From assembly GCA_021819205.1 (NCBI GenBank), contig JAKARV010000008.1, positions 1-64,000 on the forward strand: 64,000 bases of DNA, written 5' to 3'. Below, piece after piece: positions 55,016 through 62,535 of this stretch. The notes under the pieces were generated by a model, which worked only from the letters and a program-made list of their open reading frames with translations, had not been told where the DNA came from and searched no databases. Position 1 is the first letter of the stretch. Every line of letters begins with the position of its first letter. Source of the stretch: Actinomycetes bacterium (lineage in GTDB: Bacteria; Actinomycetota; Acidimicrobiia; Acidimicrobiales; Acidimicrobiaceae). Both the position numbers and the translations under genes were made by a program.

Positions 55016-55981
55016 ATGGCAAGGATGGTGCTAGTGGAACGTAGCGAGTCGGAGTCGATCAAGGGGGTTATTATTACCGGTGGATCCGGTTTCATCGGGT
55101 CCCATATGACGGTGGCGTTGAGAAGCCGGGGTGTTCCGGTAGCCATCGTCGATCGCAACTCGCCACCCTTGGTTGACGTGAACCTATTCGTCAAAGGGGC
55201 AATTGAGGACGAATCTACTTGGGTCCGGCTCGGCAATGAGCTTTCTTTCGAGGTGGACACGCTCTTTCACCTTGCGGCTCGGACCTCGGTTCTCGAGTCC
55301 ATAAATGACCCTTCGGACGTTTTCGAGTCAAACCTTGTGGGATTTCACAAAGCACTTGAATTCTGTCGCCGTAGCGGCATTGGACGTGTTGGCTTTGCTT
55401 CAACCAACGCAGCAGTTGGGAACGGTACGACCGGCATCATTACCGAGGAGGCGCCGCTTTTGCCGCTCACTCCCTATGGAGCGACCAAGGCTGCTGGCGA
55501 GATGCTAGCTTCGGCCTATACGGCTTCCTACGGCATTGATGTGGCGTCGGTGCGCTTGACCAATGTTTACGGTCCAGGAATGTGGCGCAAAGACTCGATC
55601 GTCCCGCGGCTATTCCGCCACGCGGTTGGTTTGAGCGACTTTGCGATCTATGGAGATGGGCAGCAGTTCCGGGATTTTGTCTACGTCAAGGATGTCGTCG
55701 ACGCCTTTCTTACGCTTGCGGAGTGCCGGTTCTCGGGTCCTGTCTCTTTTGGATCTGGCTCGAGTGTGACAGTTAACGAGCTGGTCAAGTTTGTTGGGGA
55801 AACCTCTGGCATTTCGATCAAGCCGCGGCGGATTCCGCCCAAGCCTGGAGAGATGGCGGGAGTCGAGATAAGCCTTGAGCTTGCGAGCAAGCTAGGGCTC
55901 CGCAGCGAGGTATCGCTGCGGGATGGTTTGAAGATGGCCTGGGAGAACTTCCAGGAGGAGCAGGGGCAGGCGGCGGGCTAA
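55016..55981 (+). CDS. NAD-dependent epimerase/dehydratase (extended SDR)
   Basis: About 321 residues. Rossmann motif TGGSGFIG is near the N terminus, LFHLAARTSV follows, then the active-site Ser/Thr region ASTNAAVGNGTTG, YGATKAAGE with the catalytic Tyr and Lys, and RLTNVYGPGM. This places it with UDP-glucose 4-epimerase-like and sugar dehydratase enzymes; the exact sugar is not determinable. ATG 55016 is one of several starts (GTG 55001, ATG 55025, GTG 55028), none with a convincing ribosome site. It converges with and overlaps the plsC-type gene by 4 bases. Confidence 0.85.
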   Translation: MARMVLVERSESESIKGVIITGGSGFIGSHMTVALRSRGVPVAIVDRNSPPLVDVNLFVKGAIEDESTWVRLGNELSFEVDTLFHLAARTSVLESINDPSDVFESNLVGFHKALEFCRRSGIGRVGFASTNAAVGNGTTGIITEEAPLLPLTPYGATKAAGEMLASAYTASYGIDVASVRLTNVYGPGMWRKDSIVPRLFRHAVGLSDFAIYGDGQQFRDFVYVKDVVDAFLTLAECRFSGPVSFGSGSSVTVNELVKFVGETSGISIKPRRIPPKPGEMAGVEISLELASKLGLRSEVSLRDGLKMAWENFQEEQGQAAG

Positions 55982-56883
55982 TCGCGACCGCCGGGCCGTG
56001 ACGATCCAAATAGCCGCGGCCAGCTAGACGTTTCTTTGGCCGGATAGCGGTGGGAGCGGTCAAGCCAGACTTCCCTCCAGCCGCGGCTACTGGGAGGAAA
56101 GTGGCGACCGCGAGGTTGCGACCGGGCTTTCCAAAAGTCAGTCGCCGCCTCTGCGCGAAGTACCTCCAGCTGTTGCCGGACGACCTCGATGAGCGCTTGA
56201 GGGCGCATTCCCGTTTGGGGGTGTATTGGCTTGCCGCAAATGACCTTGGTTTTTCCGGGCTGTAAGCGGCTGTTGTCTTTGCCCAGAAGCTCGTAGGTGC
56301 CGTCCAGGTAGATTGGCAGAATCGGTACCCCGACTTTCAGCGCGACCTGCGCCGCACCGGCCTTTAACTCTTGCGGGAGGCCATCGGGAGTTCTTCCGCC
56401 CTCCGGGAAGAGGATGAGATTCCAGCCCTTCTGGAGCAACTCGACCGATAGGTCTGATGATCGCCGCGATACTTTGGTCCGCTCAATCGGAATTGCCCCC
56501 AGAAGGAGCGCGGAGAGGAATCCTTTCGTTCTTCGGTCAAAGAAGTAATCCGCTCCGGCTCCGATGACGGCACGCTCGCGAATGCGGCGAGGAAGGACCG
56601 AAAGCAACAGAAGGGTGTCAAGATGGCTTTCGTGGTTGGAGACTATAACCGCTGGAGTCTCAAGGGTGTCGAGAACGTCCTGGTTGATTAGGGTTGGCGT
56701 GGCGATTTGACGTGTCACTGGCGCGATCAAGTACTCCAAGGCCAGGGATCTAAAGATGCGTGCAGGCGGGGTGCGGGAAAAAGCGGTATCGTAGTCGGCG
56801 CCGGTCGAGTGGGCGCGCGTTCGCAGGTATGAGCCGGGCAAACTGGGGCGGCGGAGGATATAGTGCAGCTTTGATTGGGTCAT
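55978..56883 (-). CDS. PlsC-type acyltransferase
   Basis: 1-acylglycerol-3-phosphate O-acyltransferase family, 301 residues. The catalytic motif NHESHLD (NHx4D) is near residue 83, the substrate motif FPEGGRTPDG near 160, and VPILPIYLDGT follows. A C-terminal tail of about 60 residues rich in Arg, Ser, Trp and Pro is unusual. Last gene of the minus-strand operon with the reductase-HAD fusion, the alcohol dehydrogenase and the LarA-like protein, 23 bases after the latter. It should acylate an alcohol or phospho-alcohol made or used by that set. Confidence 0.88.
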   Translation of the reverse strand: MTQSKLHYILRRPSLPGSYLRTRAHSTGADYDTAFSRTPPARIFRSLALEYLIAPVTRQIATPTLINQDVLDTLETPAVIVSNHESHLDTLLLLSVLPRRIRERAVIGAGADYFFDRRTKGFLSALLLGAIPIERTKVSRRSSDLSVELLQKGWNLILFPEGGRTPDGLPQELKAGAAQVALKVGVPILPIYLDGTYELLGKDNSRLQPGKTKVICGKPIHPQTGMRPQALIEVVRQQLEVLRAEAATDFWKARSQPRGRHFPPSSRGWREVWLDRSHRYPAKETSSWPRLFGSSRPGGRD

Positions 56884-56906
56884 GGTGTCCTCTCTGTCGT
56901 CTTGGA

Positions 56907-58496
56907 TCAGTAGACGTCCGCCATAACCAGCGGTGGGGAGTGCAAGTGGGTGACGGTCGGGTTAGCCCCAACGATACTTCCTGCCATTTCCAAGGCATCA
57001 TTGAGGGTCGAGGCGGGCTTGAAGCCGAGGCGCCGGACGGTTTTCGGATCGCCGCCCATTACGATTACGCCCCCGAGATGGTCGAGGGCGTGGGCGCCCC
57101 AGTACCACATATAAAAAGGGTGGACACCATGGTACGCGTTTCCAGTACGGTAAAGATGGATGTACCACGGGTCGCGGGCGAAGGTCTCCTCGTACTTTTG
57201 CTCGATGATCAAAGGATCGGTGGTCTCGGTTAGGACTTGTTCGTAGAAGTCAATGTAGCTGGGGTGAAACGCGGGATCGAACTCGGGCCTGGTTGGGTGA
57301 GAGATGATCACTACGCCACCCTTTCGCACCAGCGGCTTGTGGCGGTACATATTGAAGAAATAACCGAGTGAAAGGCAGTAGACGAGGATTGGGTTCATAA
57401 TCGAATTGACGTTGTACGGACCGACAAATGGGAGACCCATCGTGAGGATGTCGGTTTGGCCCTCAACTCGGACCAACTGTTGCTCGAACACCTTAGCCAA
57501 GGTTAAATCGTGCACCGCTTCGACCTCTCCCGCGTTGACCCCGGTGACTCCGTAAGGCGAGCGTATCGAGTGGAAGATCTGCCGGGCGAGCGCTGGCGGC
57601 GTCTTTGCAAGGGCTCCATTAGCCGCCACAAAGGAAGCGCGGTCCCGCAGGTCCCACTCCCACTCGCGACGCTGGAGGAAGCGGAAGCTGTCTGGAAAGG
57701 TGTTTGTGTTGAGCGTGGTCTCAATTTGGAAAATTTTGATTCCCGCATCCTTGATAAGGCGTCCCATGCGCCAGTTGGACGAGTGAAGCTCGCTACTATG
57801 CCGGTCCATGAACGATCGGGACTGGACCATGGTCTTTACGTTGTGGTGGTGTCGAATTGAGGCGTAGCTTGCAAGTCCGGTGGCGACGCTCTTGTGGCCG
57901 CCGTCCATCGAGACCAGGTTGATATTCACGTACACCAAAAGGTCGCTTTCGGCTGCCCGCCGGTTGATCTCCACCAGCTCGCCTTGGTCGGTGTGGCCGA
58001 TCTCAAGCATGTTGGCTTGATCCTCGGCATCGTGCTGGGTTAAAAGTCCGCGAGGTTTTAAGGCGTTGTATGCGCGCTTCCCGACTGCGTGCTTCAGCTC
58101 CCCCTCGGTCATTCGTCGATGAAGGGCAAGCGCTGCCACGAGTTGAACGTCTTCAACGCCGGCTTGCGCGGCGCGCTCGAGCACGGCTTCGATCACCAGC
58201 GAGCGAATATCTGGTGCGGTCATCTGCGGAAGCGGCAACGATACATCGTCAAAGGCGATGGTCAGCTGCATGCCCGGAAAGAGCAGCGCATCTAGCGGCT
58301 TTTGATCTCCGGCTGGATTGTCGAGGGCGTTCTCGATTGCTGTCCGCACATCTCTAATTGCTGGAAGCGGTTCGGGGGGGTAAAGGATTCGCGAACTGCG
58401 TGGCAAACGCTCAAGCCGGAAGTTTTCCCCATACCAGAAAAGTGTGGGTGGGGTGGAGCGGTCTACCTCCAGGACAAATCCAGGCCTAGCCGTCAT
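56907..58496 (-). CDS. LarA-like (lactate racemase family, DUF2088) protein, substrate unknown
   Basis: 529 residues, about 100 more than LarA of lactobacilli. LarA-type motifs: AFDDVSLPLPQM (residues 81-92) for the S-D-x-T-R-P-x-P strand; ALALHRRMTEGELKHAVG (124-139) with His126 where LarA has its proton-transfer His; and DGGHKSVATGL (198-208) with Lys202 at the place where LarA links its nickel-pincer nucleotide, followed by HHHN (216-219). These suggest it can carry the NPN cofactor and move a hydride at an alpha-hydroxy carbon. The maturation genes larB, larC and larE are not in the window. It overlaps the alcohol dehydrogenase stop by 11 bases. Confidence 0.75.
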   Translation of the reverse strand: MTARPGFVLEVDRSTPPTLFWYGENFRLERLPRSSRILYPPEPLPAIRDVRTAIENALDNPAGDQKPLDALLFPGMQLTIAFDDVSLPLPQMTAPDIRSLVIEAVLERAAQAGVEDVQLVAALALHRRMTEGELKHAVGKRAYNALKPRGLLTQHDAEDQANMLEIGHTDQGELVEINRRAAESDLLVYVNINLVSMDGGHKSVATGLASYASIRHHHNVKTMVQSRSFMDRHSSELHSSNWRMGRLIKDAGIKIFQIETTLNTNTFPDSFRFLQRREWEWDLRDRASFVAANGALAKTPPALARQIFHSIRSPYGVTGVNAGEVEAVHDLTLAKVFEQQLVRVEGQTDILTMGLPFVGPYNVNSIMNPILVYCLSLGYFFNMYRHKPLVRKGGVVIISHPTRPEFDPAFHPSYIDFYEQVLTETTDPLIIEQKYEETFARDPWYIHLYRTGNAYHGVHPFYMWYWGAHALDHLGGVIVMGGDPKTVRRLGFKPASTLNDALEMAGSIVGANPTVTHLHSPPLVMADVY

Positions 58497-59691
58497 GCTT
58501 TACCTTCCTCATGTCGAACACCACCTTGACGGCGTCCTCTTTTCCTCCAGCGCGAGCCTTCGAGATTGCCTCGACGTACTCGGACAGGCGGAACTTGTGG
58601 GTGACCAGGGCGCCAATGTTTGCGGACTTCGCCAGCGCGATTGCAAGGCTAAAAGTTCTGATCGATTGCGGCTGATTTAGCCGCGTTGCGATCTCTGGGC
58701 CCAGCACCTCGGTTCCGTAAGCGTAGCTTCCCTTGAGATTTATCTCCCGATGCCAAAGCGGAGCAAGATCCAAATGGGTGGTTGCCGGCATGCCTGCCGC
58801 AACGACCTCGCCTCCCGGAGCGGTTGAGAGGATGGCCGATTCGAGAGAGCCCGCCGACCCCACAGCGTCGATGGTGGAGTCGAAGCCTCCCCCCAAGTAG
58901 CTCCCCGCCCGGTTGGCCTTGGCAGCGCTTCGCGCCCTTCGGGCCAGCTCAGAAGGGTCGATCACGGCATCGGCGCCGAGCTGCCGGGCGAGTTCGCGCT
59001 GGATCGGATGTTTGGCGGCGACGGTAATCGAAGAGTAGCACCCAAGGGCTTTTGCGGCCGCCAGAATGCTCAGCCCTACGGTGCCAGCGCCCACAATTGC
59101 CAGTGATCCGCTGCGGCGTGCCGGCCTGAGCGCCGCGTGAATGGCACAGGCGAAGGGCTCGATCATTACCGACTCTTCCAGCGTGTACTCGGCTGGGAGG
59201 CGGTGGAGCGTGTCTTTGTGGGCCAGGAACTCGGTAGACCAGCCGCCGCCGGTTGAGCTGCAGAACCCGGTTTGAATCCCTTCGGCAAGGTCGCCGAAGG
59301 TGGTGTTGGAACAGAGTTGGGTGTTGCCGCTTGCGCACGCGTTGCAGGGCGGGGTCCCCCTCACTGAGCAGGTGAGGGCGGGCTCCAAGACAAAGCGGAC
59401 TCCTGGATCTTCGGGTAGTTCGACTACCACCTCGTGGCCGGGAGTGAAGGGGAAGGATGTCATCGGGTCGAAGTACCGTGAAGCCTCGAAGAATATGGTG
59501 GCGAGATCCGAGCCGCAGATGCCGGAGAGGATCGGGACCGCACGCCTCCAATCGGAGTTCGGCGGCTGCTTCGGGGGACCGTCCCGCAGCGTTAACGGAC
59601 CAGACTCCACGGCACGTTCAACCGCGAAGCGGGATAGCAGCCTGGCGGTTGCAAAACGGGCCGGGGTACGGGAAACGACAAGTGATCTCAT
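58486..59691 (-). CDS. zinc-dependent alcohol dehydrogenase (MDR family)
   Basis: About 401 residues. Catalytic-zinc ligands appear in ICGSD and PGHEVV, and structural-zinc cysteines in CSVRGTPPCNACASGNTQLC. The NAD(P) fold is VGAGTVGLSILAAAKALG. The substrate is not defined; a long-chain alcohol or aldehyde is the natural guess from its neighbours. ATG 59691 overlaps the reductase-HAD stop (ATGA), while codons upstream lie inside that gene. The stop lies within the start of the LarA-like gene. No leader peptide; cytoplasmic. Confidence 0.9.
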   Translation of the reverse strand: MRSLVVSRTPARFATARLLSRFAVERAVESGPLTLRDGPPKQPPNSDWRRAVPILSGICGSDLATIFFEASRYFDPMTSFPFTPGHEVVVELPEDPGVRFVLEPALTCSVRGTPPCNACASGNTQLCSNTTFGDLAEGIQTGFCSSTGGGWSTEFLAHKDTLHRLPAEYTLEESVMIEPFACAIHAALRPARRSGSLAIVGAGTVGLSILAAAKALGCYSSITVAAKHPIQRELARQLGADAVIDPSELARRARSAAKANRAGSYLGGGFDSTIDAVGSAGSLESAILSTAPGGEVVAAGMPATTHLDLAPLWHREINLKGSYAYGTEVLGPEIATRLNQPQSIRTFSLAIALAKSANIGALVTHKFRLSEYVEAISKARAGGKEDAVKVVFDMRKVKHDG

Positions 59692-62000
59692 AGTTGGCTC
59701 CCGAGGGGGAGGAAAAGCGAGGGGTATCCCGGGGAGCGCGACCACTCTTCGATAAGCCACCCGCGCCTCCGTGCGAGCTGGCGCAGTCGGGGGTCGGGGT
59801 TGACGGCAACGGCCACCCCGGCCGCCTCGAGCAGTGGGAGATCGCTGGTGGAGTCGGCGTATGCGATACTGTCCTCCTCACCGTAGCCATGACTCCGCGC
59901 GAGCTGGCGGAGCAGATCGGCCCGCGCCTCGCCGATCGGAAGGGCACCCCGGATCTCTCCGGTCAGTCGCCCTTCGTCTTGGGGCATCTCTAGCGCAACG
60001 ATCTCGTCGAAGAGTGGAGCTATGGGTTCAACGATGAACGACAGGGCTCCAGTGACGAGGACGGTATAGTGGCCGGCTGCCCGGTGGGCCCGAACCCTTG
60101 CAAGTCCTTTGGGGAAGGATTTTCGAAGGAGGAAGGCGGTCATGAACCGTGTTGATTGATCCTCGAGTTCGGCGATGTCGGCCCCACGGTATCTGCGGTA
60201 AAAGTATCGTAGGAAGTCGGAACGATCCCGGGCATCGAGCGAGAGGAGCTTAGGGGCTTCGGCGAGAAGGGTTGTTGCAATAATGCCCTTCCTGCCAGGG
60301 CTGGAGCGTTCGGTGGCCAGCCAGGCGAAGGAGTCCACCACGTTGGCGGCGATCAGCGTGTTCTCCAGGTCGAATACGACTATCCGTCTCCCGGTGAGGA
60401 GCGATCGGCGGAGACGATCTTCTCGGCTCTCGCCGCGCTGCCTGGTCGGCGAGGTTTTCGCACGGGCGTGTTCCACGACCGACGGCAGATGGGTTTCAAG
60501 AATGAACCGTTCCCAATCGATCTCCCTGGGATCGACGCTGAGGAGCTGGCGGTCTGCCGGGTCGAGGTTGGCAGTAATCCGCAGCAGGTTGGAGAAAAGA
60601 TAGTTGGCCTCGCACTCTGCGTAGGCTCCGTAGAGCTCGACGTAGGACTGCGCTCTTTCGAGGGTTACCCGGGTCTCTGCTAACCGATCTTGGTAATCGA
60701 GCAGGGTTCCACGGAGGGGTAGCCGGGTCATCAAGCGGTTTAACGCTCGGAGAAGTTCCTTGCTGCGGTTTAGCTTGGACTCCACCTCGCCGCGTCCGGG
60801 ATAGGTCCACTCGGGGATTTTGATGGCCGATCCGCGGTCGTCGTAGAGGGGGTGGTCGCTGAAGTACTTGCGTACTAGGGTTACCAGTTTGGAGTACCGG
60901 AGCGGGTTGAGGGAGCCGGAGGCGGAGTGGTAGAAGGTGATCTCTGGCGGAGGTGGGGACGCCGCAACCGCGAGCAGGGCGCCGACCACGTAGTCGACCG
61001 GAATTACGTCGATCACAGCTTCGGCGGCACCGGGAAAGTCCTTTAACAGTCCACGGGCGAATGAGATGATGATCGGTTCTGCCATCCGAAAGCCACGAAT
61101 CCACCCCGGATACGGCTCCGAGACCGCGGACTCAATGATCGATGGCCGAATGACCGATACCGGGATCGTGGCGGCGAGTTCTTCGAGGGCTTGCTCTCCG
61201 AGCGCCTTGGTCATTGCGTAGGCGTCGGGCCAACCCAAGCTCTGAGCACGCGCTCTTCCCAGCGAGACCATCTCGCTCTTCACCCAATCAAGCCGCAGCC
61301 GTTCGGTTCGTTCTGCAAGAAGGGCAACGCCGGCCGGCCCAAGCTCCTCTTCGGCAGCGCTGCGGAAGTGGAGGAGGCGTTTTGCTTCCCGGCTCCGTTG
61401 TTCGACGAGGCGCCGCAACTCCCTCGCGCTGGTTACTTCGTCTTTCCATGACACCCGGGGGTAGTGGGGCTGTCTCGACAACGAGGTTTCGGCAGCATCG
61501 CCCTTTCTGGAACCCGCAACGTACGCGGTAGAGACAGAGACGAAATGTGCGCTCAAAGTCGCCGAACGCAGTTCCCGGTAGGTGCTCAGCACTCGTCCCG
61601 GACCGAGAAGGTTTATCTCCACAGCCTGGTCCAAGGTGGCGTCAAAGCTCACTGTGGCTGCGGAGTGGATCACCACGTCGGCTTCGGCCAGAAGCTCGCG
61701 GCCGGCTTCGTCTAGACCAAGACCATCGATGGAGACGTCGCCGGCAACAGGCAGGAGCCGGTTGCGCACGGTGTCGCGGAAGCCGTCGGCTCCGAGCTCC
61801 GAGCGAAGACGGTCGAAGCAGCTGTTGCGGAGGATATCACGCTCCAAGCGCTTGGCTGCACTTGCGTTTCGTCCGGGGCGAATTAGAACTGCAAGACGAG
61901 TGTCGGGGAGCTTTCTGAGCGCGCTCTCAATAAAAGCCGTACCAAGAAAGCCGGTTCCGCCGGTAACAAAAACAGTCTTGCCCTTTAAGACGTCGAACAC
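59688..62000 (-). CDS. acyl (thioester) reductase fused to HAD-IB phosphatase
   Basis: 770 residues. Residues 1 to about 350 are an extended SDR of the fatty acyl-CoA reductase/thioester-reductase type: TGGTGFLG (13-20), SVSTAYVAG, and Tyr261/Lys265 in YAMTK. Residues 350-510 are a helical 'sterile'-like region. Residues 540-770 are a HAD phosphatase with nucleophile motif FDLENTL (Asp544), the Thr motif VTGAL, and ADSTSDLPLL. In motif I the second Asp of DxD is Glu546. Predicted roles: reduce an acyl thioester to aldehyde or alcohol, and remove a phosphate. First gene of the operon; no promoter identified. Confidence 0.85.
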   Translation of the reverse strand: MFDVLKGKTVFVTGGTGFLGTAFIESALRKLPDTRLAVLIRPGRNASAAKRLERDILRNSCFDRLRSELGADGFRDTVRNRLLPVAGDVSIDGLGLDEAGRELLAEADVVIHSAATVSFDATLDQAVEINLLGPGRVLSTYRELRSATLSAHFVSVSTAYVAGSRKGDAAETSLSRQPHYPRVSWKDEVTSARELRRLVEQRSREAKRLLHFRSAAEEELGPAGVALLAERTERLRLDWVKSEMVSLGRARAQSLGWPDAYAMTKALGEQALEELAATIPVSVIRPSIIESAVSEPYPGWIRGFRMAEPIIISFARGLLKDFPGAAEAVIDVIPVDYVVGALLAVAASPPPPEITFYHSASGSLNPLRYSKLVTLVRKYFSDHPLYDDRGSAIKIPEWTYPGRGEVESKLNRSKELLRALNRLMTRLPLRGTLLDYQDRLAETRVTLERAQSYVELYGAYAECEANYLFSNLLRITANLDPADRQLLSVDPREIDWERFILETHLPSVVEHARAKTSPTRQRGESREDRLRRSLLTGRRIVVFDLENTLIAANVVDSFAWLATERSSPGRKGIIATTLLAEAPKLLSLDARDRSDFLRYFYRRYRGADIAELEDQSTRFMTAFLLRKSFPKGLARVRAHRAAGHYTVLVTGALSFIVEPIAPLFDEIVALEMPQDEGRLTGEIRGALPIGEARADLLRQLARSHGYGEEDSIAYADSTSDLPLLEAAGVAVAVNPDPRLRQLARRRGWLIEEWSRSPGYPSLFLPLGSQL

Positions 62001-62058: not shown

Positions 62059-62535
62059 CTACCCGCTCTTTCGTCGGCCGGGCCGCCGCTTCGGAGGCGT
62101 GTAGCGCTTAGAGGCTTCCGGCGAGTGTCGCTCTAGCGGCAAGGGAGCGCCGGCCTTAGCAGCGCGCCTCGCCATTCTTGCCTGCCTTCGAGCCTCCACC
62201 TCCGCCTTGTCGACCTTGAATCCGACAAATACCCCCCAGGCCAGCAATGGGAAGGCAAGCAGAACGAGGTTGCCCCAGCCTGCGCCTAGCGCCTCCAACA
62301 TGGCAAAGGCTCCGGCGATACGACGCTTGTCGCGGTAGATCATGAAAGCGGCAATTGCGAGCAAGGCCAGACCCTCGGGAATTGCGAATACCGGTGTGTC
62401 CAGGAACGGCAACTTTGGGGATACCTTGACCCTGCCGAGCAGGACTGGAGACCATATCGCCAGATAGGCGGCGCCGGTCAATCCGATAATGGCGTAACCG
62501 ATCTGTCGTTCGCGCCGTGTTATAGATGCAGCCAT
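62059..62535 (-). CDS. small multi-pass membrane protein with basic tail
   Basis: 158 residues, three helices (about 13-30, 52-66, 87-106), then a charged, Arg/Lys-rich C-terminal tail from residue 108 (EARRQARMARRAAKAG, then PPKRRPGRRKSG). Such tails often touch nucleic acid, ribosomes or anionic lipid. I do not recognise the family. It lies 58 bases upstream of the reductase-HAD operon on the same strand and could be its first gene. Confidence 0.7.
   Translation of the reverse strand: MAASITRRERQIGYAIIGLTGAAYLAIWSPVLLGRVKVSPKLPFLDTPVFAIPEGLALLAIAAFMIYRDKRRIAGAFAMLEALGAGWGNLVLLAFPLLAWGVFVGFKVDKAEVEARRQARMARRAAKAGAPLPLERHSPEASKRYTPPKRRPGRRKSG

Follow-up and report, generated by a model that had tools for sequence, protein, structure and literature searches.

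A conserved actinomycetal operon combining a single-histidine LarA-like protein with predicted lipid enzymes

No reaction is known for the groups of LarA-family proteins that lack the second catalytic histidine (PMC12611868, PMC7583248), although hydride transfer to an adjacent site has been suggested for them (PMC7583248). A Frankia protein, LarAH14, was assayed and no activity was detected, and the 2020 study set aside the related group 16 because its residues for the nickel-pincer nucleotide (NPN) cofactor are not conserved (PMC7583248). Structures of single-histidine LarA proteins exist, and the context in which they have been seen so far is loosely that of carbohydrates. Among ether-lipid systems, the elb operon of Myxococcus xanthus encodes the HAD protein ElbB, ElbD, which combines FAR1, ACS, ACP and AGPAT, and ElbE of the NAD-epimerase family (PMC9131029). 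Here we describe an operon of four genes in a stretch of 64,000 nucleotides (the window; positions 1 to 64,000 of contig JAKARV010000008.1, assembly GCA_021819205.1) from an actinomycete of the family Acidimicrobiaceae. The operon encodes a LarA-like protein with a single catalytic histidine together with a fusion of a fatty acyl-CoA reductase and a HAD domain (FAR-HAD), a zinc-dependent medium-chain dehydrogenase (ADH) and a PlsC-type acyltransferase. One group of single-histidine LarA proteins is in this way tied, almost without exception in Acidimicrobiales and related Actinomycetota, to defined lipid enzymes. All functions were assigned by homology.

Layout and conservation of the operon

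The source assembly comprises 2.13 Mb in 64 contigs and is 92.6% complete; the window belongs to its contig C16. All four open reading frames (ORFs) are open at the coordinates in Table 1, and the Pfam domains of all four proteins score above cut-off. We read the junctions directly from the sequence: FAR-HAD and ADH overlap by 4 bases (ATGA), ADH and the LarA-like gene overlap by 11 bases, and a gap of 23 bases separates the LarA-like gene from PlsC.

Table 1. Genes of the operon and the gene upstream of it (positions in the window)
Feature	Coordinates	Strand	Description
FAR-HAD fusion	59688..62000	minus	770 aa, GTG start; Pfam NAD_binding_4 + HAD, NCBIfam
Zinc-dependent medium-chain dehydrogenase (ADH)	58486..59691	minus	401 aa, ATG start; Pfam ADH_N + ADH_zinc_N
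LarA-like protein, LarAH14/15/16, single catalytic histidine type	56907..58496	minus	529 aa; Pfam Lar_N, NF052592
PlsC-type lysophosphatidate/glycerolipid acyltransferase	55978..56883	minus	301 aa; Pfam Acyltransferase PF01553
Small protein, no known family	62059..62535	minus	158 aa; 58 bases upstream of FAR-HAD; probable fifth member in lineage

The LarA-like protein and, independently, FAR-HAD were searched in 396 genomes of the phylum. Gene presence was scored by tblastn, which we preferred because ORF calls give spurious shadow ORFs in high-GC DNA, and synteny was counted at those loci whose contig reaches far enough on the flank. The LarA-like protein was recovered at 51-100% identity in about 90 of the 396 genomes (92 in a later count), and in most of these the FAR-HAD match falls close to it on the contig concerned. 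The four genes keep identical order and orientation in 60/60 loci from named records (genome_contigs), nearly all of them from Acidimicrobiales, and in 32 of the 33 other Actinomycetota loci, the exception (L058, genome G263) being without the ADH. The initial annotation had described four coupled genes, and both the ORFs and the junctions confirm this; the set is conserved beyond this genome, across a large group of Actinomycetota. The four genes almost certainly represent a real functional unit.

Nine Rubrobacter-like loci (family f25) do not have PlsC next door. At seven of them (L078-L081, L084, L095 and L096), a gene for PlsY (PF02660, 176 bits) lies directly upstream of FAR-HAD and ADH, and LarA follows 0-2.5 kb beyond the ADH, so that two unrelated glycerol-phosphate acyltransferases associate with one core. 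A protoglobin gene is located between ADH and LarA in L078, L084 and L096. The operon partners are all missing beside eight distant LarA relatives (about 37-42% identity), so the operon defines a specific LarA subgroup. The distant LarA genes of L099 and L103 (42% identity) adjoin a gene for a family III CoA-transferase, which suggests an acyl-CoA-linked hydroxy acid for this LarAH branch. In a single case out of 123 loci (L128, 3983-7000), ADH and LarA share one open frame; this is a possible ADH-LarA fusion and may be a sequencing artefact.

Regarding the surroundings of the operon, a gene for a TetR-type regulator was found nearby in many loci. The small protein encoded upstream of FAR-HAD had no match in Pfam or NCBIfam. 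Its homologue precedes FAR-HAD in the same orientation in all 45 loci that possess one, and in the window the small gene may be the fifth member of the operon.

The LarA-like protein and its probable cofactor

The LarA-like protein matches the NCBIfam family NF052592 over its full length (residues 7-528) with 876.7 bits, the cut-off being 740. The LarAH14/15/16 family is already catalogued under this entry and its Frankia member has been assayed, which narrows the claim of the initial annotation that the locus might be an undescribed system. The structure predicted by AlphaFold2 (pLDDT 90) displays the two-domain LarA fold, and comparison with LarA structures of the lactate/malate racemase type gave Z scores of 27-39 over 383-453 aligned residues. 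The best fold match was 9q3k, the LarA structure from Streptococcus plurextorum (Z 39.4, root-mean-square deviation 2.4, 453 residues, 26% identity), with lactate racemase behind it (Z 29).

To describe the active site, residue conservation was tabulated on up to 140 LarA-like sequences and on an alignment of 20 sequences (A1). K202, H218, H126 and D84 are invariant in 140/140 sequences. The first two correspond to LarA K184 and H200, the lysine of the NPN thioamide and the fourth nickel ligand, with their 16-residue spacing kept, and H126 corresponds to the first catalytic histidine, LarA H108. In terms of 9q3k, its Asp73, His115, Lys195, His211, Tyr307 and His401 are found here as Asp84, His126, Lys202, His218, Tyr361 and His459, all invariant in A1. 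The second catalytic histidine (LarA H174) is missing, and the loop in question contains Asn191 and Asn193. Moreover, LarA Arg75, which binds the carboxylate and the cofactor phosphate, is represented by Leu87, and this position is hydrophobic in nearly all members. Having lost both this histidine and this arginine, the protein is not expected to act as an ordinary 2-hydroxyacid racemase. The protein is nevertheless a real member of the LarA family, as initially annotated: its nickel and lysine ligands are intact, and the modelled pincer site, with the lysine, the nickel-binding histidine and the first catalytic histidine all kept, is not disrupted.

The initial annotation also proposed a search for larB, larC and larE. 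The first two are present and adjacent in this genome, but larE was not found in the 92.6%-complete assembly, either with the TIGR00268 profile or with larE of Acidimicrobium ferrooxidans as query. Assemblies of metagenome-assembled genomes are incomplete, so absence from a single genome is weak evidence; among the 20 other genomes of the order that carry the operon, 18 have larE. The larE gene of A. ferrooxidans (L206, 8274-9131) adjoins a transposase-like gene, and no counterpart was found in this genome. Within the order and class we compared 38 genomes, 21 with the operon and 17 without. Of the genomes with the operon 19/21 have larC, against 0/17 of those without (Fisher p about 1e-8), and for larE above its cut-off the figures are 18/21 and 0/17 (Fisher p about 4e-8); both p values are uncorrected for shared ancestry, because of which such co-occurrence counts are not independent. 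In the whole phylum, larC is present in 81/92 operon genomes versus 167/304 genomes without the operon. In 18 of the 21 operon genomes of the order and class, no Lar_N protein other than the LarA-like one exceeds the cut-off, and so it is in practice the only NPN client there.

The LarA-like protein probably uses NPN. We also considered that it works without this cofactor, serving an otherwise ordinary FAR/PlsC system as a subunit with a structural or some other role. The loss of the Arg75 and His174 equivalents would fit such a role, as would the dropping of the related group 16 in 2020 for its unconserved NPN residues (PMC7583248), the lack of larC and larE in genomes G263 and G294, and the failure to find larE in this genome. 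However, the cofactor lysine and the nickel-ligand histidine are invariant in all 140 sequences, larC and larE follow the presence of the operon within the order and class, and in most cases no NPN client other than the LarA-like protein is possible, which makes a protein without NPN improbable. The LarA-like proteins of G263 and G294 themselves retain intact cofactor residues. Do these organisms salvage the cofactor, or is its loss in progress?

Partner enzymes and candidate products

The FAR domain is of the short-chain dehydrogenase/reductase type. It matches NAD_binding_4 (PF07993) with 193 bits and, weakly, the Sterile domain, and its motifs TGxxGF(L/V)G and YxxxK are invariant. The nearest PDB relatives of FAR-HAD are 7eoz (a fatty acyl-CoA reductase) and 3fvv (HAD). 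The C-terminal HAD domain is HAD-IB phosphatase-like and reaches the TIGR01490 cut-off; its Asp544 (the nucleophile), Asp716 and Asp720 are invariant. Motif I (DxDxT) is unmatched in the window, where it reads DLENT; residue 546, the general-acid Asp of the motif, is Glu. Of 115 loci, 102 have Glu at this D+2 position and 13, including the Rubrobacter-like and f23 loci, have Asp. In the ADH, Cys59, His86, Glu87 and Glu178 are invariant and the catalytic zinc ligands are kept, and the structural Cys cluster is conserved in 91%. The PlsC motifs HX4D and FPEGxR are invariant or nearly so.

Taken as a set, these enzymes are likely to make a glycerolipid, or else a lipid whose chain is reduced. A lipid product was already proposed in the initial annotation and is still the best reading, but two of the forms considered there did not fare well: a wax ester is unlikely, as WS/DGAT is absent, and a role as hydroxy-acyl racemase is weakened by the missing second histidine and arginine.

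An operon for storage of fatty alcohols or wax esters would agree with the FAR-type reductase and with the occurrence of WS/DGAT genes in many Acidimicrobiales. However, no WS/DGAT gene (PF03007) occurs in this genome, in the complete genome of A. ferrooxidans or in G069, G102, G123, G263 and G390, all of which have the operon, and 4/4 Rubrobacter-like operon genomes also have none; the gene is found in many genomes without the operon. On its absence from operon-bearing genomes we rejected a wax ester as the product, and the storage operon as a whole is mostly refuted and very improbable.

The best models for the ADH were idonate, inosose and threonine dehydrogenases, all with scores far below the cut-offs, and judged from its sequence it resembles polyol/secondary-alcohol dehydrogenases more closely than fatty-aldehyde reductases. 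One rival reading is a pathway to a sugar or polyol headgroup, in which the LarA-like protein and the ADH would act on a phosphorylated polyol, the HAD domain would dephosphorylate it and PlsC would acylate it; FAR would supply the reduced chain or act on another thioester. Besides the ranking of the ADH models, such a pathway is favoured by the nearest solved LarA relatives, which are located among carbohydrate genes and hold a ligand of 316.5 Da modelled as a phosphorylated aldose (PMC12611868). Yet none of the ADH scores comes near its cut-off, the LarA of the window is without His306 and Lys76 of the solved relative, and the neighbourhood comparison recognised no conserved sugar kinase or transporter beside the operon. 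We consider the headgroup pathway unlikely.

An equally doubtful candidate is a pathway to hydroxy-lipids or long-chain diols, with a 2-hydroxyacyl thioester or its diol as the substrate. FAR would reduce C1, the LarA-like enzyme would shift a hydride between C2 and C1 or invert C2, and PlsC would acylate the diol. LarA enzymes do use 2-hydroxy acids, and FAR and PlsC are compatible with these roles, but the position of the carboxylate-binding arginine is hydrophobic in nearly all members and in Rubrobacter the set occurs with PlsY, which acylates glycerol-3-phosphate.

We tentatively favour, by analogy, an alkyl-ether glycerolipid as the product, with the LarA-like enzyme as an integral part of its synthesis, at somewhat short of even confidence. 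According to the title of a 2023 study, membranes of Rubrobacterales are dominated by mixed ether/ester lipids (Sinninghe Damste 2023, doi 10.1016/j.syapm.2023.126404, cited in PMC11150832). The ether product is proposed because the parts list matches that of elb and because ether lipids have been reported for Rubrobacter. It also agrees with the lack of both WS/DGAT and PlsA/Ger-type genes in the Rubrobacter-like genomes, whose version of the set includes PlsY, and with the absence of WS/DGAT here and in A. ferrooxidans. The abstract of the 2023 study reportedly names a putative operon for 1-O-alkyl-glycerol phosphate.

In an ether pathway, the FAR domain would convert acyl-CoA to a fatty aldehyde or alcohol, and PlsC, or PlsY in the Rubrobacter-like genomes, would supply or complete the acyl-glycerol-phosphate. 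The polyol-type ADH might act on a glycerol ketone/alcohol or on the fatty aldehyde, and the HAD domain could remove phosphate in the lineages with an intact DxD motif. For the ether bond itself we can offer a speculative and rather improbable scheme, in which a single-histidine NPN enzyme of the LarA family forms the alkyl-glycerolipid ether by transient oxidation. The LarA-like enzyme would abstract a hydride from the glycerol unit at a secondary alcohol and return it on the same face, for which one catalytic histidine would suffice. The transient oxidation would activate the neighbouring carbon, allowing the acyl group to be exchanged for the fatty alcohol, and the LarA-like enzyme would so replace the flavin enzyme AGPS and the keto-reductase.

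We also searched for known ether-forming enzymes. The PlsA/Ger-type domain PF06050 was not found in any of 11 genomes tested, Rubrobacter-like genomes included, and on this absence a PlsA/Ger ester reductase was ruled out as the local ether maker. No AGPS was apparent among the three FAD-oxidase_C loci of this genome, in a survey that was not exhaustive. One locus lies in a glycolate-oxidase operon and has glycolate oxidase as its best PDB match; the other two, judged from sequence only, are a fragment at a contig end, next to a gene for a thiamine-pyrophosphate enzyme, and a gene located with others for amino-acid catabolism.

Several observations weigh against an ether lipid made with an NPN enzyme. 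The four proteins contain no ACS or ACP domain, and with no AGPS either, the ether-forming step rests on a proposed activity of the LarA-like enzyme. In this enzyme Arg75, a contact of the cofactor phosphate in LarA, is replaced by Leu. As many as 11 of the 92 operon genomes are without larC, and G263 (L058) and G294 (L056) keep the LarA-like gene without larC and larE. The DLENT motif in most members makes phosphatase activity of the HAD domain doubtful there. Regarding the lipids, we found no ether lipid of Acidimicrobiales in the literature, and the part of the chemotaxonomy of A. ferrooxidans available to us lists only fatty acids (PMC3035218).

The link with lipid enzymes points to glycerolipids as the substrate class and to culturable organisms for tests. 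As the initial annotation stated, no characterised route is known to use a LarA-family enzyme in lipid chemistry, and we found none in the literature consulted. If an ether lipid is indeed the product, the operon would supply the missing ether-lipid enzyme of aerobic Actinomycetota without PlsA/Ger. If transient oxidation also proved true, the LarA-like protein would be without precedent among NPN enzymes, both for its part in lipid synthesis and for being neither a racemase nor an epimerase, and the ether lipid would arise by a new route without AGPS, PlsA or Ger.

Comparison with known systems

Among LarA proteins, Frankia LarAH14 of the NF052592 family shares the missing second histidine with the protein of the window, and the main text of PMC7583248 does not mention a tight link to a FAR-HAD/ADH/PlsC operon. 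From the LarA proteins of S. plurextorum and Blautia wexlerae (9q3k, 9q2u and 9q3j), the equivalents of the lysine, the nickel-binding histidine, the first catalytic histidine, Tyr307 and His401 are kept here. Of these structures, 9q3k represents a single-histidine LarA loaded with NPN; compared with it, Lys76 is replaced by Leu87 and His306 by Pro360, and the Asn185 loop is shorter. The genomic context also differs, as the single-histidine LarA of S. plurextorum and B. wexlerae has carbohydrate neighbours, whereas that of the window has lipid neighbours.

Among ether-lipid systems, the eukaryote-type pathway (FAR1, GNPAT, AGPS and a reductase) has in common with our operon a fatty alcohol-forming reductase and a glycerol-phosphate acyltransferase. 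Its AGPS was not seen among the FAD-oxidases examined here, and the LarA-like enzyme may hypothetically take its place. The elb operon unites FAR, HAD and a glycerolipid acyltransferase, as the operon in the window does. However, FAR is fused to the acyltransferase in elb and to HAD in the window, and ACS and ACP are present in elb only, whereas our operon adds a zinc dehydrogenase and the LarA-like protein.

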